Below the pieces are notes generated by a model that was given only the letters and a program-made list of their open reading frames with translations, was not told where the DNA came from and searched no databases. Positions 985-49,402 of a DNA stretch of 64,000 bases are shown here, in pieces. The stretch spans positions 744,001-808,000 of the forward strand of contig JAPWJW010000001.1 of assembly GCA_028283825.1 (NCBI GenBank), written 5' to 3'. The position numbers were made by a program, and so were the translations under genes. The DNA comes from Azospirillaceae bacterium (lineage in GTDB: Bacteria; Pseudomonadota; Alphaproteobacteria; Azospirillales; Azospirillaceae). Every line of letters begins with the position of its first letter. Position 1 is the stretch's first letter.

Positions 985-1114
985 CCTCAATCGCCGGGCG
1001 CGGCCATCCGGCCGCTGGGCTGATCCCCGCTCTTCGGTCCGCGTCGCTTCCCGAACAGCTCCGGCGCCCGCAGTCGCGGTCTACAGGGACAGGCGGCAAA
1101 GCCGCATGTCCCTG
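985..1114 (-). repeat. Structured intergenic element, copy C (four hairpins)
   Basis: Read on the minus strand, it starts 2 nt after the stop codon of the M1-peptidase/ABC gene. P1 is 1084-1114 (outer arm CAGGGACA with TGTCCCTG, inner GCGGC with GCCGC). P2 is CCGC-GACT-GCGG. P3 is CCGGA-GCTG-TTCGG. P4 is 1000-1015 (GCGGCC-GGAT-GGCCGC). A conserved linker containing GCGGAC lies between P3 and P4, and the copy ends near TTGAGG. Two further copies with the same layout are at 15145-15270 and 46593-46720. Stem sequences differ between copies but stay paired. Function is unknown; it could be a 3'-end RNA element, terminator or mobile repeat. Confidence 0.7.
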
Positions 1115-1116
1115 GT

Positions 1117-4100
1117 TCAGCTTCCCGTCTCGGCACCCAGCTTGGCGACGTTGTCATCGGAATTGCGGTCGATCAGCTTGTTGTAGGGGTCGATGCCCAC
1201 AAAGCCCGGCTTCCTGTCCACCACCAGCTCGATGGTCTGATCGCCGTCATGGATGGGCTGCTTGGCCAGGTGGATGACATCGCCGTCGGCGAAATCGCCC
1301 TTGCCGGGTTCCTTCAGGAACAGGCCGACATCAATGGGCAGGCTGAAGGGCTGGGGCGTTTCCTTGCCCTGGCCGTCGGCCTCCAGTTTGCCGGCGTGGA
1401 TGTCCAGGCGGACCTTGAAGCGCCCGTCGGGCAGCGCTTCGGCGCTGGAACCGGTGACCTTCAGGTCATACAGGACGATCCGGGTCAGCATGTCGTCGAT
1501 CAGGCCCGACCATTGGGGTCCTGCCTCCGCCTTCAGGGCGTCCACCAGGTCGGTGGACAGGGCGTAGCGGTCGGTGCGGGCCTTGCCCTCGCGCAGCAGG
1601 CGGGCCAGCGCCCGGTTCACCACGTCCTCGCCCAGGTAATCCTTCAGGGCGTACATCACCACTGCCCCCTTGCGATAATGGATGTAGGGCTGGTCCTCCA
1701 CCCGGTTCAGCGGCAATTCCTCCAGTTCCTCATGCCCGCGGCTGGAGAGGTAGCGGTCCAGCTCATACTTCAGGAACTTGCGGATCTGGTTGGGGCCGTA
1801 CTGATGCTCCATCACCATCAGCGACGTGTACTGGGCCAGCGTCTCCACCAGCAGGGTGTTGCCCTGGACGTTGGCCGCCTCCAGCTGGTGCCCCCACCAT
1901 TGGTGGGCGACCTCGTGCGCGGTCACATAGAACACGCTGTCGATCTTGGTCTTGTCGCGGTTGTCCTCGATGAAACCCATGCCTTCGGAGAAGGGCACGG
2001 TGTTGGGGAAGCTCTGGGCGAAGCGGGCGTAATCGGGAAATTCCAGGATGCGCACCTGGCGATGCTGATACGGACCGAACGCCGTGGAGCAATAAGCCAG
2101 CGATTGCTTCATGGACGTCATCATGCGGTCCACGTTCCAGACGTGGGGCGCGTGGTAATAGACGGCCAGGTCCACCGGCTTGCCGTCCGTCCCGCCCGTC
2201 CAGCTGTCATGGGCGACGGCATAGCGCGCGGACAGCCATGAGACGAAGTAGGGGATGGGTGCGTCGCTGGCGTAATGGAAATAGCGACGCTCCTGGCCCG
2301 TGGCGTCCATGGCCGTCCATTCGCGTTCCAGATATCCCGGCGCCACCGCCGTTTGGTCCGGGTCGGTGGAAATGGTGGTGTCGAAGTCGATCAGGTTGGC
2401 CTGCGGCCCCAGGTCCGACACCGCCCATTGGCTGCTGTCCTCCAGCTTGGGCTCACGATCGATGGGCGGCAGGTGGTGCTTGCGGCGCCTGAACTTGTCC
2501 TGGAGCATGGCTTGCCGGCTGAAGCCCACCGTGGGCAGGGCGCTCCAGTTGTTGATGAAGCTGCCATTGCCCACCACCATGGGGGCGTTGGCGTCGTTGG
2601 TGAAGCCGGGGTGGCGCTGGCTGACGGCGAAGTCCAGGCGCAGCCGGCCGCCGGGCGCCAGCGGTTGGTCCAGGGTGAAGATGCGGTAGTGAAGGCGTTG
2701 GTCGTCCGTCGTCAGGTGTCCGCCCTCCAGTGCCATGCTCTCCAGGTCGGTGTCCGTCGGCATGACCACATGCACCTGGGTCAGCGGCTGGCCGGTCCGG
2801 TTTTCCAGGATGTAATGGCCATGGGCGTCATATCCCTGGACGGCGGGGTGCAGGTCCATGGCCACCGAGACGGCGACGATGCGCGGCTGGGGCAGGGTCT
2901 CATACTGGCGGTAGGCATTCTCGTAATCGACCTGAAGGGCCTCGCGCTCATCCTGGGTGCGGAACTGGTTCAAATGGTGGGTGTTCCAGGCGGTCCACCC
3001 GCCGCTGCCGGCGAAAACCAGCACCAGCAGGCAGGCCAGCGCCGCCATCGGCCGGGTCCAGCCGGTGGCCAGCGCCCGGCGGCGATCCCGCCAGGTCAGC
3101 GCGCGCCCACGCGGCCAGATCAGGTGGGCCAGCACCAGCAACAGGCCGGCCGCCGCCCCCCAATAGACATCGAACCAAATGTGGGCCAGCAGGAAATGAC
3201 CGTAGCCGTTCATGTCCGACAGGGGCAGGTTGGGGGCGGTCCCATAGACCAGCAGCTTGTCCTCCAGCCCCAGGCTGCCGGCCTTCATCTGGAAGACGAC
3301 GTACAGCACCATGACGGCATAGCCGACGAACTTGTTGGGCGACAGCACCTGCACGAACAGGGTCAGCGCCAACAGGATCAGCGTGTCGGGCAGCGCCGTG
3401 CCCAGCAGGGACACGAGGTATAGGCCGGGTTCCAACGGCACCGGGCCGCGGGCCAGTTGCACCGCCGCTGCCGGGACGATGGCCACCAGCCACAGGCCGG
3501 CCAGCACCAGGGCGATGGCCAGGTATTTTGAGACTGTGAACACCCAGCCGGGGGCCGGCGTGGCGCCCAGGATTTCCGCCACGTTGGCCTGGCGGTCCCG
3601 CCACACCAGTTCACCGCTGTAATAACCGGCGATGGCGAAAGGCGCGATGCTGAAGGCACCCAGGATGGCGGTCACCATTTCCCGTGTCACGGGGTAGGAG
3701 GTGACGTCGTAATTGCTCTTCAGCAGCAGCAGGGTGGCCGTCAGGTTCATCAGGCTCACGGCCAGCAGGATCAGGAAGCTGGGGCTGCGGACGGTGGCCG
3801 TCGCCTCGAACTGCAGCCGGACGCGCAGCATGGACCAGAGCGTCGCGGCCGTCAGCGCCGTCGCCACCGGCCGCAGGGGTGGCGGGGCGGTTCGTGTTTC
3901 CGTGGCGGCGGGTGCCCCGGTGCGCCGCGGGCCCCGCCGTAGCGCCCAGGCGTCGCCGACCAGGCCCAGGACGATCAACCCCAGGGACACGGCGATCCAG
4001 ATCAGGCGGTTGGCCAGCAGGGCCCCGGTCAATGGCGGCAACAGGCCGTTGCGCTCCACCACCGTCCAATAGCGGGTGACGACCTGCAGGGTCGCGATGC

Positions 4101-4749
4101 CGAACGGGTCCAGATAGCTCATCAAGGGGCGCAGGCCGGGGTCGGACAGGGCGCGGCTGATGACCAGATAGGCCACCAGCAGGGCGATCATGGCGATGTA
4201 TGTCGCCATCTGCCGCCGGGTGAAGGCGGCGACGGCGAAGAACAGGGCCCCCGTCACCGCCATGTCGGGCAGGCCGAACACGCCCAGGGCGTAGAGATAA
4301 TCCCAGGGGCGGAAGGCGCCGAAATGCTCCGGATCCACCCACCAGGCGAGGCGCCCGACGATAGTGCCCCATTGGCAGGCGCTGATGGCCACTGCGCAGG
4401 CGATGAAGGCGCCCGCCAGCCGCGCGGCCAGCAGCAGGGGACGCGGTACCGATGTGGCACCGATCAGGCCCGCCATGCCCGTGTCGTCGTCGCGCAGCAC
4501 CGGGTCCGTCAGGCCGCGCAGGGGGATGCCCATGGCGAACAGGCTGAGGATGCTGGTGACCATCAGGATGGTGAAGGGCGCGTCCATATGCACGCCGCTG
4601 CTGCGCCCGCCGATCTGGATCTGGTCCACCGTGGTGGCCAGGAAGGTCAGCAGGAAAAACAGGGCGAAGTTGATCAGCAGGGCTGGTTGGCGCAGCTGAT
4701 AGCGCAGCTCGAACCAGGCGATGCGGGCGAATAGGCGCGGCGCGGTCAT
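1117..4749 (-). CDS. ABC-2 type permease fused to M1-family zinc aminopeptidase
   Basis: A 1210-residue inner-membrane protein. The N-terminal half (about 1-560) holds many hydrophobic helices in two ABC-2-permease-like blocks. The C-terminal half resembles M1 metallopeptidases: the zinc motif HEVAH is at residues 945-949, the third zinc ligand is probably the Glu of LLVETLAQY about 20 residues later, and SEGMGFIED takes the place of the GAMEN-type exopeptidase motif. The ATPase partner lies 48 bp upstream in the same operon (4798-5688). Fusions of this kind are known in proteobacteria and Bacteroidetes, but their substrate is unclear. By inference the peptidase faces the periplasm and acts on, or together with, what the transporter moves. 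A structured repeat begins 2 nt after the stop codon. Confidence 0.9.
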   Translation of the reverse strand: MTAPRLFARIAWFELRYQLRQPALLINFALFFLLTFLATTVDQIQIGGRSSGVHMDAPFTILMVTSILSLFAMGIPLRGLTDPVLRDDDTGMAGLIGATSVPRPLLLAARLAGAFIACAVAISACQWGTIVGRLAWWVDPEHFGAFRPWDYLYALGVFGLPDMAVTGALFFAVAAFTRRQMATYIAMIALLVAYLVISRALSDPGLRPLMSYLDPFGIATLQVVTRYWTVVERNGLLPPLTGALLANRLIWIAVSLGLIVLGLVGDAWALRRGPRRTGAPAATETRTAPPPLRPVATALTAATLWSMLRVRLQFEATATVRSPSFLILLAVSLMNLTATLLLLKSNYDVTSYPVTREMVTAILGAFSIAPFAIAGYYSGELVWRDRQANVAEILGATPAPGWVFTVSKYLAIALVLAGLWLVAIVPAAAVQLARGPVPLEPGLYLVSLLGTALPDTLILLALTLFVQVLSPNKFVGYAVMVLYVVFQMKAGSLGLEDKLLVYGTAPNLPLSDMNGYGHFLLAHIWFDVYWGAAAGLLLVLAHLIWPRGRALTWRDRRRALATGWTRPMAALACLLVLVFAGSGGWTAWNTHHLNQFRTQDEREALQVDYENAYRQYETLPQPRIVAVSVAMDLHPAVQGYDAHGHYILENRTGQPLTQVHVVMPTDTDLESMALEGGHLTTDDQRLHYRIFTLDQPLAPGGRLRLDFAVSQRHPGFTNDANAPMVVGNGSFINNWSALPTVGFSRQAMLQDKFRRRKHHLPPIDREPKLEDSSQWAVSDLGPQANLIDFDTTISTDPDQTAVAPGYLEREWTAMDATGQERRYFHYASDAPIPYFVSWLSARYAVAHDSWTGGTDGKPVDLAVYYHAPHVWNVDRMMTSMKQSLAYCSTAFGPYQHRQVRILEFPDYARFAQSFPNTVPFSEGMGFIEDNRDKTKIDSVFYVTAHEVAHQWWGHQLEAANVQGNTLLVETLAQYTSLMVMEHQYGPNQIRKFLKYELDRYLSSRGHEELEELPLNRVEDQPYIHYRKGAVVMYALKDYLGEDVVNRALARLLREGKARTDRYALSTDLVDALKAEAGPQWSGLIDDMLTRIVLYDLKVTGSSAEALPDGRFKVRLDIHAGKLEADGQGKETPQPFSLPIDVGLFLKEPGKGDFADGDVIHLAKQPIHDGDQTIELVVDRKPGFVGIDPYNKLIDRNSDDNVAKLGAETGS

Positions 4750-14188: not shown

Positions 14189-14311
14189 AACGGCGGGCAG
14201 GGCGGCTTTGAGTTTTTGGTGGCTTTGGTGCCCTGGCATCCGCCGGGGCGGCGGGGCTATCATCGCGGGCGGCGGCGCTTTTCCGCCGATGCTGTCGAGC
14301 AGGTGCGGCAC

Positions 14312-15130
14312 ATGCATGACGCCTTATCCCCGTCCACCCTGTCTGCCAACGTCTTGCCCACCACCGTTCCGCACAGGCTCATCGACCGCCTGCGCCGGTT
14401 GATCGCGCCTGAGCGCAGCGACCGTGCCGATTCGCATCTGGCGGTGGCCTTATGCCTGGTGGCCGGCATGACCAACGCGGGTGGTTTCCTGGCGGTGGGG
14501 CAGTACACCTCGCACATGTCGGGCGTGGTCTCGTCCCTGGCGGATAATCTGGTGCTGGGCGCCCTGGGGCTGTTCGGTGCAGGGCTGGCGGCCCTGTGCG
14601 CCTTCATGGCCGGGGCCGCCTGTTCCGCCATCCTGATCAACTGGGGCCGGCGCCACCACAACGCCAGCCAATATGCCCTGCCCCTGTCGTTGGAAGGGCT
14701 GCTGCTGCTGGCGTTCGGCTTTCTCGGGGCATGGCGCCTGCACCTGCCGTGGTTCCTGGCGGTGGCCGTGCCCCTGTTGTGCTTCATCATGGGGTTGCAG
14801 AACGCCATCATCACCAAGTTGTCGCGCGCCCGCATCCGCACCACCCACATGACGGGCATGGTCACCGATATCGGCATCGAACTGGGCAAGCTGATCTACT
14901 GGCACCGCCACGCTGTGGCGGGCGAGAGCGGGGCACCCGACCGGGTGCGGGCCGACCTGCCCAAGCTGCGCCTGCTGTCCTGCCTGGTGGGCGCTTTTTT
15001 CGGCGGCGGGGTGGCCGGCGCCCTCGGCTTCAAGATCATCGGTTTTTCCGTGACCGTGCCCCTGGCCGCCCTGCTGTTCCTGCTGGCGGCGGTACCCCTG
15101 GCCGACGATCTGCGCGGAAAGAGGTCTTAA
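14312..15130 (+). CDS. DUF1275 (YoaK-type) membrane protein
   Basis: A 272-residue inner-membrane protein of the DUF1275/YoaK family, whose function is not established. After a polar N-terminus it has about six or seven hydrophobic helices. Family motifs are AGMTNAGGFLAVGQYTSHMSG near residue 55 and the central FIMGLQNAIITKLSRARIRTTHMTGM. ATG 14312 was chosen over an in-frame start at 14216, whose translation is Arg-rich and unlike the family. It is the first of four unrelated genes that separate hscB from fdx. It ends 15 bp before the distal end of structured repeat copy B. Confidence 0.85.
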   Translation: MHDALSPSTLSANVLPTTVPHRLIDRLRRLIAPERSDRADSHLAVALCLVAGMTNAGGFLAVGQYTSHMSGVVSSLADNLVLGALGLFGAGLAALCAFMAGAACSAILINWGRRHHNASQYALPLSLEGLLLLAFGFLGAWRLHLPWFLAVAVPLLCFIMGLQNAIITKLSRARIRTTHMTGMVTDIGIELGKLIYWHRHAVAGESGAPDRVRADLPKLRLLSCLVGAFFGGGVAGALGFKIIGFSVTVPLAALLFLLAAVPLADDLRGKRS

Positions 15131-15144
15131 TCTTAGACGTGTTC

Positions 15145-15270
15145 CCTCAGGCGGCGGGCGGCCACATCCGTGGCCTTGCCTTATCCTCGGTTTCCAGTCC
15201 GCTTACGCTCCCCAGAAACCTCCGGCGCCCCCGTCGGGGGCTAGCGGCATGAGGTATGGCCTCATGCCGC
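15145..15270 (-). repeat. Structured intergenic element, copy B (four hairpins)
   Basis: In minus-strand sense it begins 9 nt after the stop of the CocE-type hydrolase. P1 is 15244-15270 (11-bp stem GCGGCATGAGG). P2 is GCCCCC-GAC-GGGGGC. P3 is 15212-15225 (CCGGA-GGTT-TCTGG). A linker containing GCGGACTGG and GAGGAT follows. P4 is 15160-15175 (GGCCAC-GGAT-GTGGCC), and the copy closes with GCCTGAGG. Spacing from P1 to P4 is 111 nt, against 114-115 nt in the other two copies (985-1114, 46593-46720). Confidence 0.75.
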
Positions 15271-15279
15271 GTGTTGTTG

Positions 15280-17298
15280 TCAGGGCGTGCCGGGTGCCGG
15301 CATGACGTGCACCTCCAGCCCCGACGGATAGTCGGGCGACCGGTAGATGCGTTCCCGCGCCGCCTTGAAATCCTCCGGCTTGGCCTGGGGGATGTTGACG
15401 AAGGTTTGGGGGTTGCGGTCGACCAGGGGGAACCAGCTGCTCTGGATCTGCACCATGATGCGGTGGCTGCGGCGGAAGGTGTGGTTGATGTCGGCCAGGG
15501 CGTAGCGGATGGGCGTCACCTGGTCCGGCACCATGGGTTCCGGTTTCTCAAAACCATTGCGGAACTTGCCCCGCAGCGGGTCGCCACGCACCAGTTGCTG
15601 ATAGCCTTCCATGTCCACGCTGGGCGGCGGCACGTCGGCCTTGGGATCGGACGCCCCTTCCCCGCCCGGCACCGGCGGCAACTCATCAGGATAGACGTCG
15701 ATCAGCTTCACCACCCAGTCGCTGTCGGTGCCGGAGGTGGAGACGAACAGTTTGGGCGACACCGGCCCCACCAGCGTCACGTCGTTTTCCAGGGGTGCGG
15801 TCTGATAGACCAGCACATCCGGGCGCGTGGTGGCGAAGCGCTGGTCGGCCACCATGTATTCCTTGGGCACGTCGGTGGTGACGTAGCCGACATAGGGCAC
15901 CGGGTGGGCCGGGTCGCTGATGTATTCGTCGAACTTGGCGGGTGCCGTCGCCGGCGCCGTCCAGCCCAGGCCGCCGTCCGGCAACAGATACAGGGTGCGG
16001 GTCTGGGCCTGCTTGGGCGGCCATGAGGGATATTGGCGCCAGACATTGGTGCCGGTCTCGAACACCGTGGCCTTGGCCAGCTTCGCGTCCGGGGCGCCCT
16101 TCAGATGCTGTTCGAAGAAGGGGAACAGGATGTTCTTCCGGTAATAGTCGCCGGTGTCGGCCGCGAAATCCACCGCCCCCAACTTGTGCCCATAGGTCCG
16201 GGCCCAGCCACCGTGCACCCACGGGCCGATCACCAGGTTGTTGGGCGTGCCGGGGTTTTGCGCCTCGATGGCGTTATAGGTGGTGAAGGGGCCGTGCAGA
16301 TCCTCCGCATCGAACCAGCCGCCCACGGTCAGCACGGCGGCCTTGATGTTCTTCAGGTGTGGGGCGATGGCGCGCGGCTTCCAGTAATCATCGTAGGTGG
16401 GATGGTCCACCATCTCATGCCAGCCAACGGGATCGCCGTTGGCCAGCAGGTCGCCCATCTGGTCCAGATTGCCCTGCTTCAGATAGAAGTCGTAGCCGTC
16501 GGCGGTGCCGAAATCATAGTCGGACCAGCCGCGCGGTTCCGGCGTGGGGTTCTTCTGCGCCTTGAAGGCGGCATAGAAGGCGAAGTTGGCCGCCAGCATG
16601 TAGGCGCCACCATGATAGGCGTCGTCGCCCAGGTACAGGTCGGTCACCGGCGCCTGGGGGGAGGCCGCCTTGATGGCCGGATGGCTGTCGACGATGCTGG
16701 CCGAGGTGAAGAAGCCTGGGTAGCTGATGCCCCAGATGCCGACCTTGCCGTTGTTGCCGGGCACGTTCTTCAGCAGCCAATCAACGCTGTCGTGCATGTC
16801 GCTGCTGTCGTCCACGTCATTCTTCGACTTCTTGTCGTCGATATGCGGCCGCGTCTCCATCCACTTGCCGCCGGACATGAAGCGGCCGCGCACGTCCTGG
16901 AAAACGAAGATGTACCCGGCGCGGTCGAAGTCCGGCGAAGGGCCCAGTTGCTTGGGATAGGACTCCGCACCGTACAGGCTTTCTCGCCCCACCCGCGCGC
17001 CCGAGCCATAGGGCGTGCGCACCATCAGGAAGGGGTAAGTCTTGGACTGGTCCTTGGGCACGTAGACGACGGTGAACAGGTCCACCCCGTCCCGCATGGC
17101 GATGCGGTATTCGTACTTGGTGTAATGCTCCTGAACGCTGAACGGCTTGTCCTGGCCCGCAGTGCCGCTTTGGGCCAGCGCCACCGGTGCCGTCATGGAC
17201 CCCGTGAGCGCCAGGCCTGCCAAGCCCACCCCAAGGATGCCCGCCGCCGCGACGATGTGCCGGGCACGTAAGCGCCGGCCTGTTTCCCTTTTCCCCAT
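15280..17298 (-). CDS. Exported CocE/NonD-family hydrolase (alpha-amino-acid ester hydrolase-like)
   Basis: A 672-residue serine hydrolase of the X-Pro dipeptidyl-peptidase/CocE group. A signal peptide (basic start, hydrophobic core about 14-38) ends near SVALAQ-like residues 40-43. The nucleophile is S192 in GIWGISYPGF; the acid is in GGWFDAEDLHG and the histidine in GPWVHGGWAR, all as in alpha-amino-acid ester hydrolases. The C-terminal jelly-roll domain (from about 480) is typical. It probably acts in the periplasm on acyl, ester or peptide bonds; the substrate is unknown. A TetR gene lies 128 bp upstream on the same strand and could control it. A structured repeat starts 9 nt past its stop. 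Confidence 0.88.
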   Translation of the reverse strand: MGKRETGRRLRARHIVAAAGILGVGLAGLALTGSMTAPVALAQSGTAGQDKPFSVQEHYTKYEYRIAMRDGVDLFTVVYVPKDQSKTYPFLMVRTPYGSGARVGRESLYGAESYPKQLGPSPDFDRAGYIFVFQDVRGRFMSGGKWMETRPHIDDKKSKNDVDDSSDMHDSVDWLLKNVPGNNGKVGIWGISYPGFFTSASIVDSHPAIKAASPQAPVTDLYLGDDAYHGGAYMLAANFAFYAAFKAQKNPTPEPRGWSDYDFGTADGYDFYLKQGNLDQMGDLLANGDPVGWHEMVDHPTYDDYWKPRAIAPHLKNIKAAVLTVGGWFDAEDLHGPFTTYNAIEAQNPGTPNNLVIGPWVHGGWARTYGHKLGAVDFAADTGDYYRKNILFPFFEQHLKGAPDAKLAKATVFETGTNVWRQYPSWPPKQAQTRTLYLLPDGGLGWTAPATAPAKFDEYISDPAHPVPYVGYVTTDVPKEYMVADQRFATTRPDVLVYQTAPLENDVTLVGPVSPKLFVSTSGTDSDWVVKLIDVYPDELPPVPGGEGASDPKADVPPPSVDMEGYQQLVRGDPLRGKFRNGFEKPEPMVPDQVTPIRYALADINHTFRRSHRIMVQIQSSWFPLVDRNPQTFVNIPQAKPEDFKAARERIYRSPDYPSGLEVHVMPAPGTP

Positions 17299-33224: not shown

Positions 33225-35065
33225 GTGCGCCCAGCATGGGCGCGTTCTTGAGGGTGGAAGTCCCTCCGTAAGCTGATCACGGTGAACGAAGCGAAACGCA
33301 ACTGCGAGAGGGCGACTGATCGTGGGGAGGAAGCGTGGAGCGAAACCACGAGCCGATGAACAAGAACCGGATAGAAGGCGGTGCCGAGCAGGGCGAGCGG
33401 GCCATGAACCGCGAAGCTCTCGTGATCAAGGGTCGGCGCCGTAGATCCGGCGGTTGTGTGGTGAAGGAGCGCGCTCTTACCTGGGGAGATCCCGCCTTAT
33501 GCCTGAAAGGGTGACGGTGTCGAGCCGGAGCGGGAAGTCAGCAGAGGTCATAGTAGGGGCCGGTTCAACTGGTGCCGAAGGACCGAACGAGGAGGAGTGT
33601 TGATCCACCGTGGCGATGCGGAAGGCAGAGCGTCAGATGTCCGCGCAAGCGGGGCGGTCGGGAGGGGGGCGAGGTGAAGCCTTGCCCGGGCCCGGCAGCG
33701 ACGAAGCCTTGCGCCCGCGCCCGGAAATGGAAAACACGGGGTCAGGGCTGCTGCTGGCGGCCCTGACGCGAGAGAACCTGCAACGGGCTTGGCGACGGGT
33801 GCGGTCCAACAAGGGCGCGGCGGGGGTTGACGGTCTGGACATTGACCAGACGGCGGCCCATCTGCGCACGGTGTGGCCCGCGATCCGGAGCCAGGTGTTG
33901 TCGGGGACGTACCGGCCTTGGCCGGTACGACGGGTGGCGATCCCGAAGCCGGACGGTGGCGAGCGTGAACTCGGCATCCCGACGGTGACGGATCGCCTGA
34001 TCCAGCAGGCGCTGCTGCAGGTGTTGCAGCCGCTCCTTGATCCGAGCTTCAGCGAGTACAGCTACGGCTTCCGTCCGGGGCGAGGGGCGCACGACGCGGT
34101 GCTGAAGGCACAGTCGTACGTCCAGTCGGGCCGGCGGGTTGTGGTTGACGTGGACCTGGAGAAGTTCTTCGACCGGGTGAACCACGACATCCTGATCGAC
34201 CGTCTCTGGAAGCGCATTGGGGATGCCGGCATCGTCCGGCTGATCCGGTCGTACCTGGACAGCGGGATCATGGTGGGGGGCGTGGTCCAGGCACGGGAGA
34301 GGGGGACGCCGCAGGGCGGCCCGCTGTCGCCGCTGCTGGCCAACGTCTTGCTCGACGAGGTGGACCGGGAACTGGAGCGCCGGGGTCATCGCTTCGTGCG
34401 CTACGCTGACGATGCGAACGTTTACGTTCGCAGCCGGAAGGCGGGTGAGCGGGTGATGGCGCTGTTGCGGCGGCTCTACGGCCGACTGCGTCTCTCGGTC
34501 AACGAGACCAAGAGCGCGGTGACCAGCGTGTTCGGCCGCAAGTTCCTGGGCTACGGCTTCTGGGTGGCGCCCGGTGGCGTCATCAAGCGGCGGGTTGCCG
34601 ACAAGCCGCTGGCGACCTTCAAGCATCGCATCCGGCAGCTGACCCGCCGTTCCGGCGGGAACAGTGTGCAGGAGGTGGTGATGCGCCTGCGTTCCTATGT
34701 TCTGGGATGGAAGGCCTACTTCCGCCTGGCGCAGACACCCCGGGTCTGGAACGACCTGGACAAGTGGATGCGCCATCGGCTGCGGGCCATCCAGCTCAAG
34801 CATTGGAAACGGGGCACGACCATCTACAGGGAACTGAAAGCACTCGGGGCCAAACCCAAGGTGCTCCATCAGGTGGCGGCCAATAGCCGCCGCTGGTGGC
34901 GCAACAGCGGGATGGCCCTCAATGCCGTCCTCTCCCTGCAATGGGCGGACGCCCTGGGAATGCCCCGTCTCTCTTGACCTCAACTCCTCGAACCGCCCGG
35001 TGCGGACCCGCATGCCGGGTGGTGTGGGAGGGGAGCGGTCCTCAAGGATCGCCCCCTATCCCGAT
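33225..35065 (+). mobile_element. Group II intron with its own reverse transcriptase, inserted after a terminator
   Basis: About 1.84 kb. The 5' end reads GTGCGCCC (GUGYG-like consensus) just after the DAHP synthase terminator. A structured ribozyme part occupies 33225 to about 33600, then the maturase gene. Domain V can be folded at 34992-35023: ACCGCCCGG pairs with CCGGGTGGT, TGCG-GACC-CGCA on top with a 2-nt bulge, and a CGC catalytic triad. Domain VI is 35024-35065 and ends CCCGAT, a proper 3' boundary. Insertion behind a terminator and the CGC triad suggest class IIC; the class is inferred. Ends are accurate to a few bases. Confidence 0.85.
33610..34977 (+). CDS. ltrA: Group II intron reverse transcriptase/maturase
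   Basis: 455 residues. Reverse-transcriptase blocks are in order: GAAGVDGLDIDQT, VRRVAIPKPDGGERELGIPTVTDRLIQQALLQ, SYGFRPGRGAHDAV, VVDVDLEKFFDRVNHDIL, GTPQGGPLSPLLANVLLDEVD and the catalytic YADD (FVRYADDANVYV). The maturase X/GIIM domain follows from FLGYGFWV to the end (RRWWRNSGMALNAV...LGMPRLS). No HNH endonuclease domain. ATG 33610 is preceded by AGGAGGAG (33591-33598). It splices and reverse-transcribes its host intron. The frame is intact, so the element may be active. Confidence 0.95.
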   Translation: MAMRKAERQMSAQAGRSGGGRGEALPGPGSDEALRPRPEMENTGSGLLLAALTRENLQRAWRRVRSNKGAAGVDGLDIDQTAAHLRTVWPAIRSQVLSGTYRPWPVRRVAIPKPDGGERELGIPTVTDRLIQQALLQVLQPLLDPSFSEYSYGFRPGRGAHDAVLKAQSYVQSGRRVVVDVDLEKFFDRVNHDILIDRLWKRIGDAGIVRLIRSYLDSGIMVGGVVQARERGTPQGGPLSPLLANVLLDEVDRELERRGHRFVRYADDANVYVRSRKAGERVMALLRRLYGRLRLSVNETKSAVTSVFGRKFLGYGFWVAPGGVIKRRVADKPLATFKHRIRQLTRRSGGNSVQEVVMRLRSYVLGWKAYFRLAQTPRVWNDLDKWMRHRLRAIQLKHWKRGTTIYRELKALGAKPKVLHQVAANSRRWWRNSGMALNAVLSLQWADALGMPRLS

Positions 35066-45195: not shown

Positions 45196-46566
45196 GTGGT
45201 CTATTCTCTGGGGGCATGGGGCATCGTGGCGGTCTTTGGGGGCGTTTTCGGCCGCCGCGCGTTCAAGCGCGCGGCGTTGCTTGCGGGTGTGGCGGCCTTG
45301 TCCGTGCTGGGGGCCTGCGTCGATGTTCCGGACAGTTCCCCCCTGCCGGATGCGTCGGCCCCGCCGCCGCCCTCCTATGCCGCCGACGCCGCGCCGCCGC
45401 CCCTGATCCTGGTGTCCATCGACGGTTTCCGCACCGACCTGATCGACCGGGGTGTGACCCCGACGCTCAGCGCGCTGGCGGCCGACGGCGTGCGGGCCAA
45501 GTCCATGCGCCCATCCTTCCCGTCGCTGACCTTCCCCAACCACTACACGCTGGTGACCGGCCTCTATCCCGACCATCACGGCATCGTGAACAACACGATG
45601 GAGGATGCGGAACTGGGGCACTTCGCGCTTTCCGAACACGCCGCCGTGGCCGACGCCCGGTGGTGGGACCAGGCCACGCCCCTGTGGGTGACGGCCCAGG
45701 ACCAGGGCCGCCGCACCGGCATCATGTTCTGGCCGGGGTCGGAGGCGCCGATCCAGGGTGTGCGGCCCGATCATTGGATGCCTTTCGACGCCAAGATGCC
45801 GCCTGACCAGCGGGTGGACACCCTGCTGGGCTGGATGGACCTGCCGGCCGACCAGCGACCTGCCTTCCTCACCCTGTACTTCGACCAGGTCGACCATGCC
45901 GAACACCAGACGGGCCCGGACAGTGCCGAGACCAACGCCGCCCTGGCCCAGGTGGACCAGGCGCTGGCCCGGCTGGTGGATGGCCTGAAGCGCCGTGGCC
46001 TGGCCGACCAGGTCAACCTGGTCATCGTGTCCGACCACGGCATGGCGGCGACGGCGCCGGACCGGCAGGTGGTGCTGGACGACATGGTGGATGCCGCGGC
46101 GCTGCACGTCGTCACCACCGGCCCGCTGGCCAGCATGGACATCGTCCAGGGGCATGCCGACGCCGCGGTCAAGCTGGTGGGCCGGCATGAGCACATGGAA
46201 TGCTGGCGCAAGCAGGACCTGCCGGCCCGCTTCCACTACGGCACCAACGACCGCGTGCCCCAGATCCTCTGCCTGGCCGACAACGGCTGGGTCGTCACCA
46301 CCCATGCCGACTTGGAAAAGCGCAAGAAGGACCAGGATGGCAAACAGAAATCAGGCAAGCGCGGTGACCACGGCTATGACAATGCCGATGCCGACATGCG
46401 CGCCCTGTTCGTCGCCCATGGCCCCGCCTTCAAGCAAGGCCTGGTGGTGAAGGAATTCCCCAATGTCGACGTCTACCCCCTGCTGGTGCGCCTGCTGGAC
46501 ATCCAGGGCGAACGCAACGACGGGCACCTGGAAGACACGTTGGACATGCTGCGGCCCGGTTTTTGA
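45196..46566 (+). CDS. Type I phosphodiesterase/nucleotide pyrophosphatase lipoprotein
   Basis: 456 residues from GTG 45196; nearby GTG codons give slightly shorter forms. A lipoprotein signal ends in LGAC (C41), followed by a Pro-rich linker. The NPP/alkaline-phosphatase fold is clear: metal site SIDGFR, nucleophile T112 in PSLTFPNHYTLVTGLYP, FDQVDHAEH, SDHGM and GDHGYDN. These enzymes cleave phosphodiester or pyrophosphate bonds, here at the cell envelope. The gene stands behind GH27 on the same strand. A structured repeat starts 26 nt after its stop. Confidence 0.9.
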   Translation: MVYSLGAWGIVAVFGGVFGRRAFKRAALLAGVAALSVLGACVDVPDSSPLPDASAPPPPSYAADAAPPPLILVSIDGFRTDLIDRGVTPTLSALAADGVRAKSMRPSFPSLTFPNHYTLVTGLYPDHHGIVNNTMEDAELGHFALSEHAAVADARWWDQATPLWVTAQDQGRRTGIMFWPGSEAPIQGVRPDHWMPFDAKMPPDQRVDTLLGWMDLPADQRPAFLTLYFDQVDHAEHQTGPDSAETNAALAQVDQALARLVDGLKRRGLADQVNLVIVSDHGMAATAPDRQVVLDDMVDAAALHVVTTGPLASMDIVQGHADAAVKLVGRHEHMECWRKQDLPARFHYGTNDRVPQILCLADNGWVVTTHADLEKRKKDQDGKQKSGKRGDHGYDNADADMRALFVAHGPAFKQGLVVKEFPNVDVYPLLVRLLDIQGERNDGHLEDTLDMLRPGF

Positions 46567-46592: not shown

Positions 46593-46720
46593 GCGGCATG
46601 AGGCTGAGCCTCATGCCGCTGTAGGACGCGACCGCGTCCGCCGGAGATTTCCGGGGAGCCGAAGGCGGACTGGGAATCGAGGATAGCCAAGGGCCCGGAC
46701 GGGCCCGCCGGCGCCTGAGG
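46593..46720 (+). repeat. Structured intergenic element, copy A (four hairpins)
   Basis: P1 46593-46619 is a 13-bp stem with arms GCGGCATGAGGCT/AGCCTCATGCCGC. P2 46624-46639 is GGACGC-GACC-GCGTCC. P3 46641-46654 is CCGGA-GATT-TCCGG. A linker with GCGGACTGG and GAGGAT follows. P4 46691-46706 is GGGCCC-GGAC-GGGCCC, and the copy closes with GCCTGAGG. It lies between two convergent genes, in the sense of the phosphodiesterase gene before it. The P1 arm is nearly the same as in copy B; P2 and P4 have different sequences but remain fully paired. Confidence 0.75.
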
Positions 46721-46723
46721 AAC

Positions 46724-49195
46724 TTAGAAGCTAAACGCCAGCCGCAGATTGCCCCACAGGTGGCGGTTGACCAGGATGGGGCAGTCCACTTCCTTGATGC
46801 GCACCATCTGGCCGTCGCCCATGTCGCGGTGATAGGCCTGGATCAGGAAGGGCCGGGTGTTGCGCGCGGCGGCCAGGCCCGTCCGGTCCATGTACTGCCG
46901 CCGGCCCCGGCAATGGGCGGCGTCGCGGTAATGGTCGCCCTTGGCGCTTTCCGAATAGCGGGCGTTGTGCGTGGGCAGATAGGCGTTGGTGGTGGTGGCG
47001 ACGCAAAAGACGACGCGGCGGTCCAGGTCCAGCACCGGTTCCTGCAGGGCGGGGAACAGCCGGTCGGTCAGGGCGGTGTAGGGGGCCGTGAACTGTTCCG
47101 GCGTCGTGCCGGGGATGGGTTCCAGCACCTCGCTGAACAGCGCGTCGTGGGTGATGTCGCCCTGCGCCATGGCCTGGCTCAGGGCCTGGGCCATCTTGGT
47201 TGCCGTTTCCTGGGCCACGGCGATCAGCCCGTCATCGGCCTTGATCATGGCGAAATAGGCGGCCTTCAGCCGTTCCGCCGTGGCCGCGTCCAGGATGTCG
47301 AACCGGACATGCAGCCCCGACGGGCTGTGCGCGGCCAGCACCGACGGCAGGTCGCCGACCCCATCCAGATGCAGGATGGCGGCGGTGCCGTCCGGCGGCA
47401 CGTCGTTGGCGTTATCGGTCAACAGGGCCACGGCCCCGCCCAGCGACAGGTCCAGCATGCGGGCCGGGCGCCGCTCGCCATTCACCGTCATGTTGACGGC
47501 CAGGTCGCAGGGAATGCGGTCGGACTCGCGCCTGTCGCCCGCCACCGACTGGCGCAGCACCATCAGCAGGCGGTTCTTCATCTGGGCCACCGCCTGGTTG
47601 GTGGCGGCCACCTGCTGGCTGACCGTACCGGCGGCCAGGCATACGGTATCGGCCTGGCCGCGGATGTGCTGCACGCTGCCCGACACCTGGGTCGCCCCGT
47701 CGGCGGACTGGACCGCTCCCCGGCCGATTTCCGCGTTGGCGGCGGCCTGTTCCTCCACCGCCGCCGCCGTGGCGGTGGCGGCCTCGTCAATTTCCTCAAT
47801 GGTATGGATGACGGCGTTCAGGGCGTTGACGCTGCCCTCCACCGCGTCGCGGATGCCGGCCACCTGGTGCGCGATCTGGTCGGTGGCGCGCGCCGTCTGG
47901 CCGGACAGGTTCTTGACCTCGCCGGCCACCACGGCGAAGCCCTTGCCGGCCTCACCCGCGCGTGCCGCCTCGATGGTGGCGTTCAGGGCCAGCAGGTTGG
48001 TCTGGCTGGCGATGTCGCCGATCAGGGCCAGGACCTGGCCCACCTCGGCCGTCGCATCCTCCATCCGGTGCAGGGCATGGGCGGCGTGGCGCGCGTCGGC
48101 CACCGCCCGGCGGGCGATGTCGCTGGACCGGACGGCCTGGCTGGCGATTTCGGCGCCGGCCGCCCCCTGTTCCTCCGCCGCGGCGGCCACGGTGCTGGCG
48201 GTGCCACTGGCTTGCGCCGCGGCGGCGGCCACCACCACGGTGTCCTGCTGGACCTCCTTGATGTTGCCCAGCAAGCCGGTGACGGCCTGTTCCACCGCCG
48301 CCGCCGTGCGGCTGATGTCGCGCCAGGTGGTTTCCAGGTCGGTTTCGATCAGCTGGCAGGTTTCCAGCAGGGTGCGGCGCGTCGTCTCCTGCTCCCGCGC
48401 TTCCAGTTCCACCCGTTCGCGCGCCTGATAGGCCAGGATGGCGCGCAGGGCCCGCAGGCGCGCCGCCGTGGGCTGCACATCGCGCAATGCCGGCAGTTCC
48501 ACCACGTGCAGGTGGTTGCCCTGGATCAGGGCGTCGATGTCCTGGCGCTGGCGCACCAGCACGCGGCGCAATTCCCGCGCCAGGATGGTGCCGCCGGCCA
48601 GGGTCGCCGGTACGCCCAGGGCTGCGGCCCATAGCGGGTTGAGGCCGGCCGCCGTCGCCGCCAGGGCCGCGACGGGCAGGGCGCCGGCGGCCGCCAGCCG
48701 GGCGTTCAGCCCGCTCAGCCAGCGTGCCGCTGCATTGGCCAGCCCTATCCCCACCACCTGGCCCTGGGCCAGGCGGATGCCGCTGCCGGTCTGGCGCAAG
48801 GTGGCGTACAGCCGATCCGCCGCCGCCACGTCCGCCCGGGCGGGCTTGGTGCGGATGGAGATGTAGCCGGTGATGCGGCCATCCTCCTGCACCGGGGTGA
48901 CGTTGGCCCGCACCCAGTAGAAGTCACCGGACTTGGCCCGATTCTTCACCAGTCCTTCCCACGGCTGCCCCGACTGTACGGTGGTCCACAAATCTGCGAA
49001 GGCCGCGCGCGGCATGTCCGGGTGGCGCACCAGATTGTGCGGTGCCCCCAGCAGTTCCGACTCGCTGAAGCCGCTGATATCGATGAATGCCTGGTTGGCA
49101 AAGGTGATGCGGCCCTTGTCGTCGGTTTTTGAGACCAGCATTTCGCCATCGGCGACAAGGATTTCATTCTGGGTGACGGGGCCGTTGTCGCGCAT
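46724..49195 (-). CDS. Aer-like chemoreceptor: PAS, two membrane helices, MCP signalling domain, PilZ, extra C-terminal domain
   Basis: 823 residues. An N-terminal PAS domain of the Aer type ([30 protein letters not shown]...[13 protein letters not shown], about 5-120) is followed by hydrophobic helices near 150-205, then the MCP helical domain with the hairpin tip [30 protein letters not shown] PilZ domain comes next (RRESDRI and DLSLGG, the c-di-GMP contacts), then about 180 residues resembling a Cache-like sensor (ending [19 protein letters not shown]). It probably senses redox or energy state and answers to c-di-GMP, as PilZ receptors of Azospirillum do. ATG 49195 follows AAGGGAAA. Confidence 0.9.
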
Positions 49196-49402
49196 GTCGT
49201 TTCCCTTGCCAATGATTGGCGCTGGTTGCGGTCTGCGGCCTTTATCTTTCATTTTATGAAATTGTATTTGATCTAGAGCAAACCTATCCGACAGCATACC
49301 TTCGAATATGCAACCCAATCATTTTACCAGAAAACCAGTTCCCGGGCGGCGGTCAGTGCCGCCCGGGAACGCCCGGTGAACGGTCGTACCGGCCCGCTGC
49401 CG

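Follow-up and report, generated by a model that had tools for sequence, protein, structure and literature searches.

Three intergenic stretches within the window, by which we mean the whole 64,000 nucleotides of Azospirillaceae DNA analysed here, can be drawn as the same succession of hairpins. This raises the questions of what kind of element they represent and whether their fold is kept by selection. The first-pass annotation had placed the copies at 985-1114 (minus strand), 15145-15270 (minus strand), and 46593-46720 (plus strand). These positions and strands agree with the sequence and with a covariance model built from 32 copies (R1), which has exactly three matches in the window scoring 93-110 bits. 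The three copies are composed as follows.

985..1083, minus strand: core of copy 1 (TAG...TGAGG), R1 match of 102.8 bits
1084..1114, minus strand: P1 hairpin of copy 1, CAGGGACATGCGGC TTT GCCGCCTGTCCCTG, from the sequence
1066..1081, minus strand: P2 of copy 1, from the consensus structure
1025..1064, minus strand: P3 of copy 1, from the consensus structure
993..1020, minus strand: P4 of copy 1 with its lower stem and a GGAT loop, from the consensus structure
15145..15243, minus strand: core of copy 2, R1 match of 110.4 bits
15244..15270, minus strand: P1 hairpin of copy 2, GCGGCATGAGG...CCTCATGCCGC, from the sequence
15227..15241, minus strand: P2 of copy 2, GCCCCC GAC GGGGGC, from sequence and folding
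15185..15225, minus strand: P3 of copy 2, from sequence and folding
15153..15180, minus strand: P4 of copy 2, with the swapped lower stem variant GGC/GCC, from sequence, folding, and alignment
46622..46720, plus strand: core of copy 3, R1 match of 93.5 bits and sequence
46593..46619, plus strand: P1 hairpin of copy 3, GCGGCATGAGGC TGA GCCTCATGCCGC, from the sequence
46624..46639, plus strand: P2 of copy 3, GGACGC GACC GCGTCC, from sequence and folding
46641..46682, plus strand: P3 of copy 3, CC ... GG, from the consensus structure
46686..46712, plus strand: P4 of copy 3 with its lower stem and a GGAC loop, from the consensus structure

The TGA stop of the gene at 1117-4749 (minus strand) lies directly upstream of the P1 hairpin of copy 1. 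The cores of the other two copies are flanked by convergent genes, namely 15280-17298 (minus) and 14216-15130 (plus) for copy 2, and 45196-46566 (plus) and 46724-49318 (minus) for copy 3, where the TAA of the latter gene is found 3 nt past TGAGG. The window also harbors a group II intron at 33306-34977 (plus strand), with matches to Rfam RF02001 and RF01998 at 33306-33583 followed by a reverse transcriptase/maturase open reading frame at 33610-34977 (PF00078, PF08388); no connection between this intron and the repeat was shown.

The conserved core starts with TAG, ends with TGAGG, and comprises about 99 nt (97-101 nt). P2 and P4 each have a stem of 6 bp; the loop is GACY in P2 and GGAY in P4, and P4 stands on an additional 3-bp lower stem. 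The variable stems and kept loops of both hairpins had been recognized correctly in the first-pass annotation, but the lower stem of P4 had been overlooked. It reads GCC/GGC; 25 of 135 copies have the swapped form GGC/GCC. P3 rises from an invariant CC/GG base through a GGA/GA step, a 9-bp covarying stem (for example GCUUUCCGG/CUGGAAAGC), and a GGA/GGA internal loop to a tip formed by a short GC-stem. Consensus structure and covariation support this CC/GG-based hairpin in place of the P3 proposed previously, in which CCGGA was paired with TTCGG, TCTGG, or TCCGG. The two stretches described as kept are indeed present: GCGGAC is the 3' side of the internal loop of P3, and TGAGG is the end of the core. 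The proposed order P1-P2-P3-P4 stands as far as the P2-P3-P4 core is concerned, whereas P1 is a separate palindrome outside the core. A closing helix CGCCGG/CCGGCG, suggested by single-sequence folding of copies 1 and 3, was rejected because of the copies with a swapped P4 lower stem.

The stem changes that keep the pairing proved to be compensatory far above chance in two alignments. In a MAFFT alignment of 32 copies 105 cells are changed on both sides of a pair, compared with 26 after shuffling and at most 22 with slid pairing. An alignment of 135 copies from this genome was fitted to the model, and the MAFFT alignment agrees with it. Here, standard pairs make up 98.8% of the paired cells, and both sides are changed in 565 cells versus 157 with shuffled and at most 83 with slid partners; the covariation score amounts to 0.449, as opposed to 0.139 for the shuffled control. 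The unpaired columns are more conserved than the paired ones (mean majority 0.90 versus 0.83), and 34 of the 44 unpaired columns have a majority of at least 0.9.

The wobble pairs are strand-biased. In this genome 182 G.U pairs stand against 16 A.C pairs, and 40 against 15 when two wobble columns are excluded; one pair is G.U in 111 of the 135 copies. The corresponding numbers in the congeners are 86 against 3 and 16 against 3. This excess of G.U over A.C points to a constraint acting on one single strand of the core. Of the earlier proposal that RNA or hairpin DNA structure is under selection, the constraint on structure is therefore retained and can be assigned to one strand, of either RNA or hairpin DNA.

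The element is by no means restricted to the window. A search of this 7.16-Mb genome with a P4 pattern gave 389 matches, and each of six congeners has 81-117, while the reversed pattern used as a control gave none in this genome and none or one across the genomes searched. This genome (G000) thus holds about four times as many copies as each of the six congeners, by a lineage expansion or by losses in the others. All 150 candidates scored were matched by R1. Other genera of the family possess a form of about 75 nt with a shorter P3. An exact P4 pattern occurs in at least 132 places in Erythrobacter, Qipengyuania, Croceicoccus, Sphingomonas, Roseomonas, Neoroseomonas, Falsiroseomonas, Azospirillum, and others; shorter relatives of the element were found in Sphingomonadales, Acetobacteraceae, and Azospirillum, and a class-wide model (R2) was positive in 23 of 289 genomes of the class, distributed over many families. 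Two loci in Roseomonas and Neoroseomonas (L308, L325) contain tandem arrays of three copies each of a related element whose unit measures about 140 bp. The expectation that many intergenic matches with covarying P2 and P4 would be found in this genome and in related taxa was thus confirmed.

In Rfam (release 15) no family matches the element in the window, in support of the first-pass reading. For copy 3 no family scored above its gathering score at E values up to 10, and searches with 18 other loci gave no match on the element. A complete copy had no match in the plasmid collection searched. In a partial coverage of the literature (Azospirillum/Erythrobacter repeats, alphaproteobacterial MITEs and RNA motifs, sphingomonad REPs, IS630 MITEs, and CIR) we found no description of the family, so an earlier description is possible. 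For the core, further copies and covariation were found and no match to a described repeat, the three points on which the first-pass annotation had made its reading depend.

The nature of the whole unit is best seen in a related genus (G028). The complete units of this genome are 156 bp long, have the order P1-P2-P3-P4-P5, and read TACC...GATA; complete units in general begin with TACC or TATC and end with GATA or GCGTA. The units of G028 have terminal inverted repeats, TACCGCCGAGCGTAAG at one end and TATCATCGAGCGTAAAG reverse-complemented at the other, while in the window genome the unit ends have only TAC..GCGGCA in common. Most intact units of G028 are flanked on both sides by the same trinucleotide (TGA, TCA, TAA, or TTA). 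One of them (L068) splits a recombinase frame, which closes if TGA is taken as the duplication. Six complete TNA-flanked units were found in contigs of Acetobacteraceae and related bacteria. The signal of a 3-bp duplication is weak in the genome of the window, where 6 of 26 complete copies show it versus 2.9 after shuffling (p 0.04); this is expected if most copies are old.

G028 contains two identical IS630-like elements (PF13358/DDE_3 and HTH domains) with the ends TACCGYCGmGC; for one of them TNA was read at both flanks, for the other at a single flank. Three IS630-like copies in the window genome have the ends TACCAACGAGCG/CGCTCTTTGGTA and are bordered by TAA on both sides. The ends of the units and those of the insertion sequences have only about 8-15 bases in common. 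With its terminal inverted repeats, its target duplication in G028, its noncoding 156 bp, and its mostly intergenic position, the element shows the features of a MITE. Judged by these sequence features the element is mobile, and we are confident that its carrier is MITE-like. The first-pass annotation had stated that the element was unrecognized and that REP-type repeats are usually simpler. The core indeed matches nothing described in the sources searched, but the P1/P5 ends, the TNA duplications, and the IS630-like ends bring the whole unit nearer to MITEs and REP-type repeats than had been thought.

By a hairpin test, which overlooks some weak P1 hairpins, 27 of 143 copies possess P1 and P5, 78 only P1, 5 only P5, and 33 neither; P1 is absent or unrecognizable in about one quarter of the copies. 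Where both P1 and P5 are lacking, the core is sharply bounded by TAG and TGAGG. G028 also has terminal hairpins that stand alone (L383, L384, L386, L389); they measure 44-54 bp, end like complete units, and are flanked by TNA-like trinucleotides, which suggests that a terminal hairpin alone can move. A long unit of the same genome was considered as an autonomous parent with an internal core. This was rejected, as it is an ordinary copy interrupted by an IS4/5-family element (PF13340/DUF4096, PF01609/DDE_Tnp_1), which is situated inside P1 with TTA flanks (L378:1929-2782, contig 1). Some copies are apparently chimeric: a GGAGCGAAGCGAC-like sequence, which resembles the tip of P3, replaces P1 before P2 (L148 378-478, L157 816-912, L160 2501-2599, L178 1083-1181, L192 4668-4765, and L022 1679-1777). 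A pyrimidine tract lies upstream of some copies without P1 and is not general.

The gene context was determined for 143 sampled copies with a simple codon-based gene caller. Only eight of them overlap a called gene. In this genome the flanking genes are convergent in 64 cases, tandem with the copy in sense in 33, tandem with the copy in antisense in 25, and divergent in 7; class-wide the respective numbers are 26, 34, 45, and 9. Behind tandem genes there is accordingly no preference for the sense orientation, neither here (33 versus 25) nor class-wide (34 versus 45). The right-hand convergent stop is located at a median distance of 13 nt from the copy, and the left-hand sense stop 40-44 nt from it, about the length of P1. 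The trinucleotides TNA include stop codons in both orientations (TAA and TGA; reversed TTA and TCA), so that an insertion at a stop would restore the stop. We infer that the tight spacing of the stop codons arises in this way.

The element does not have the make-up of an intrinsic terminator, a GC hairpin followed by a U-tract: no U-tract follows the core, no such terminator is present near copy 3 on either strand, and P4 is followed by CGCCCGGCGnnTGAGG and not by Ts. Terminators were recognized in 11 of 51 gaps with the element and in 3 of 15 gaps without it, which shows no clear difference.

Comparison of orthologous sites bears on what happens to a copy after its insertion. None of the six congeners has copy 1 at its site; they have other sequence there, several of them with a different hairpin. 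Copy 2 is missing in all five congeners with a readable junction, and in some of these the convergent stops are only a few bases apart. The core is nevertheless well paired irrespective of the mobile ends: 99.1% in copies with P1 and P5, 98.8% with P1 only, 97.1% with P5 only, and 98.6% with neither. In 23 pairs of orthologous sites, some resting on one flank only, 508 base pairs are unchanged, 100 differ on both sides, 12 differ on one, and 9 are broken. In the 14 comparisons with both flanks matched, the identity of the core is 0.88, compared with 0.67 for the 35 nt upstream, 0.74 for the 12 nt downstream, and 0.80 when random copies are compared with each other. A copy between genes read by eye as groES and groEL (L019:1501-1600, L211:1501-1600) is kept in two species, and two of its P4 pairs are changed on both sides between them. 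At another orthologous site (L149:2501-2599 and L210:1501-1600) the best copies of the two species are oppositely oriented to the flanking genes. In one comparison (L213/L233) a single compensated position differs, whereas in two others (L215/L251 and L130/L212) whole hairpins differ at once. Such differences could stem from conversion between copies or from re-insertion as well as from stepwise compensation. For this reason selection of the core in place after insertion is not proven, and we give it about even chances.

Taken together, we favor the following scenario. A MITE-like non-autonomous element would carry the conserved three-hairpin core P2-P3-P4 between the terminal hairpins P1 and P5, and its units would be mobilized in trans by an IS630-like transposase. 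An insertion at the end of a gene would restore the stop, and copies could accumulate at the 3' ends of genes and in convergent gaps. Once a unit is inserted, its ends would decay while the fold of the core stays, being selected in place as a single-stranded structure, probably of RNA. The core would most likely serve as a 3'-end or insulator module that blocks exonuclease or convergent read-through, and its invariant GACY, GGAY, and GGA/GGA loops might be bound by some protein. This combination of a MITE-like carrier with a core kept in place as a one-strand structure falls slightly short of an even chance. The 3'-end role specifically is a best guess from the placement, and we hold it only tentatively. 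A cis function borne by the mRNA predicts a preference for the sense orientation, and the missing preference therefore counts against it. Still more doubtful is the broadest version, according to which the core is a class-wide structured RNA of the alphaproteobacteria, spread by MITEs, kept by selection at hundreds of gene ends, and bound by protein via GACY, GGAY, and GGA/GGA, with a general role at transcript ends.

As the 3'-end role is weakened by the orientation and terminator comparisons, a constraint acting during propagation only is a serious rival. The fold could be selected exclusively while the element moves, as an intermediate of single-stranded DNA or RNA or for recognition by the mobilizing protein, and the genomic copies would then be relatively young snapshots of a diverse mobile pool. 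The indifference to gene orientation, the strand-specific wobbles, the roughly fourfold copy number compared with the congeners, the lineage specificity of copies 1 and 2, and the sharp edges of cores without P1 and P5 are in line with this explanation. Conversely, copies without both terminal hairpins are equally well paired, some orthologous cores are 96-98% conserved with the flanking intergenic DNA less so, and IS630-like elements with similar ends carry no core. We consider selfish propagation unlikely on balance, though well worth weighing.

A DNA repeat of the BIME/REP kind, in which hairpin or cruciform DNA in convergent gaps serves as a binding site for gyrase or a nucleoid protein and RNA is irrelevant, would account for the orientation-independent siting between convergent genes. 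A cruciform needs both strands, yet a G.U on one strand is an A.C on the other, and the 182 G.U against 16 A.C make this explanation improbable. Even less probable is a mutational artefact, in which template switching or gene conversion corrects quasipalindromes with no selection on structure. It could explain whole stems that change at once between orthologous sites, such as the three adjacent P4 pairs of L215/L251, but such correction predicts neither the highest conservation in unpaired loops and linkers, nor the invariant closing pairs, nor the strand bias of the wobbles. Finally, a sponge of the CsrA/RsmA type, titrating a GGA-binding regulator with about six GGA motifs per core (mean 5.9, one of them in an apical CGGAY loop), is hardly credible, as the base preceding the loop changes freely together with its partner; CsrA itself is ruled out by the lack of a PF02599 match in the genome (the control was positive in E. 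coli and B. subtilis), and another GGA binder is possible.

Repeats scattered through bacterial genomes are commonly regarded as simple palindromes or as inert debris. In the present case, hundreds of differing copies in a single genome, and relatives in at least three orders, keep one three-hairpin fold by paired changes, even without the mobile ends. If the fold is selected in place, as in our favored scenario, a class-wide 3'-end RNA module would have been recruited from a mobile element, and the natural variants would allow direct tests of its function and of the protein reading it. If not, the element would still be an unusually clear MITE with a structure as cargo.

Among the known systems, the palindromic REP/BIME repeats associated with RAYT resemble the element in being present hundreds of times, at the 3' ends of genes and in the gaps between convergent ones. 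A REP is a simple hairpin of about 20-40 nt and is not known to leave a TNA duplication, whereas the element described here has five ordered hairpins, TNA duplications, and IS630-like ends. The foot of the single imperfect REP palindrome reads GTAG or GGAG. In the element GTAG precedes P2 in copies that have P1, but the base ahead of TAG is variable in copies without P1, and there are several hairpins. The repeat unit of pneumococcus, RUP, is a MITE attributed to IS630-Spn1 and inserts at TA. It resembles our element in its length of about 100-160 bp, its noncoding and intergenic nature, its hundred or more copies, and its ends like those of the IS630 family (PMC2229807). In contrast to RUP with its dinucleotide TA, three-base TNA repeats flank the TA ends here, and no conserved covarying multi-hairpin core has been reported for RUP. 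ERIC and NEMIS/Correia are small MITE-type repeats whose folding transcripts can alter the stability of neighboring mRNA (PMC2229807); they fold by end-to-end pairing, and no class-wide core of independent covarying hairpins has been described for them. The CIR repeats of Caulobacter, Brucella, and other alphaproteobacteria are intergenic, about 110 bp long, and have a proposed multi-arm RNA fold (PMC2229807). They share class, similar size, and intergenic position with our element, but consist of two long arms joined by a linker instead of three covarying hairpins. Identity with CIR was rejected, since the GANTC expected near the loop is found in only 2 of 132 cores and the number of arms differs. 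The element thus resembles a MITE in its way of working and a REP in its placement; its nearest relatives among the described repeats are RUP for the link to IS630 and CIR for class and size.
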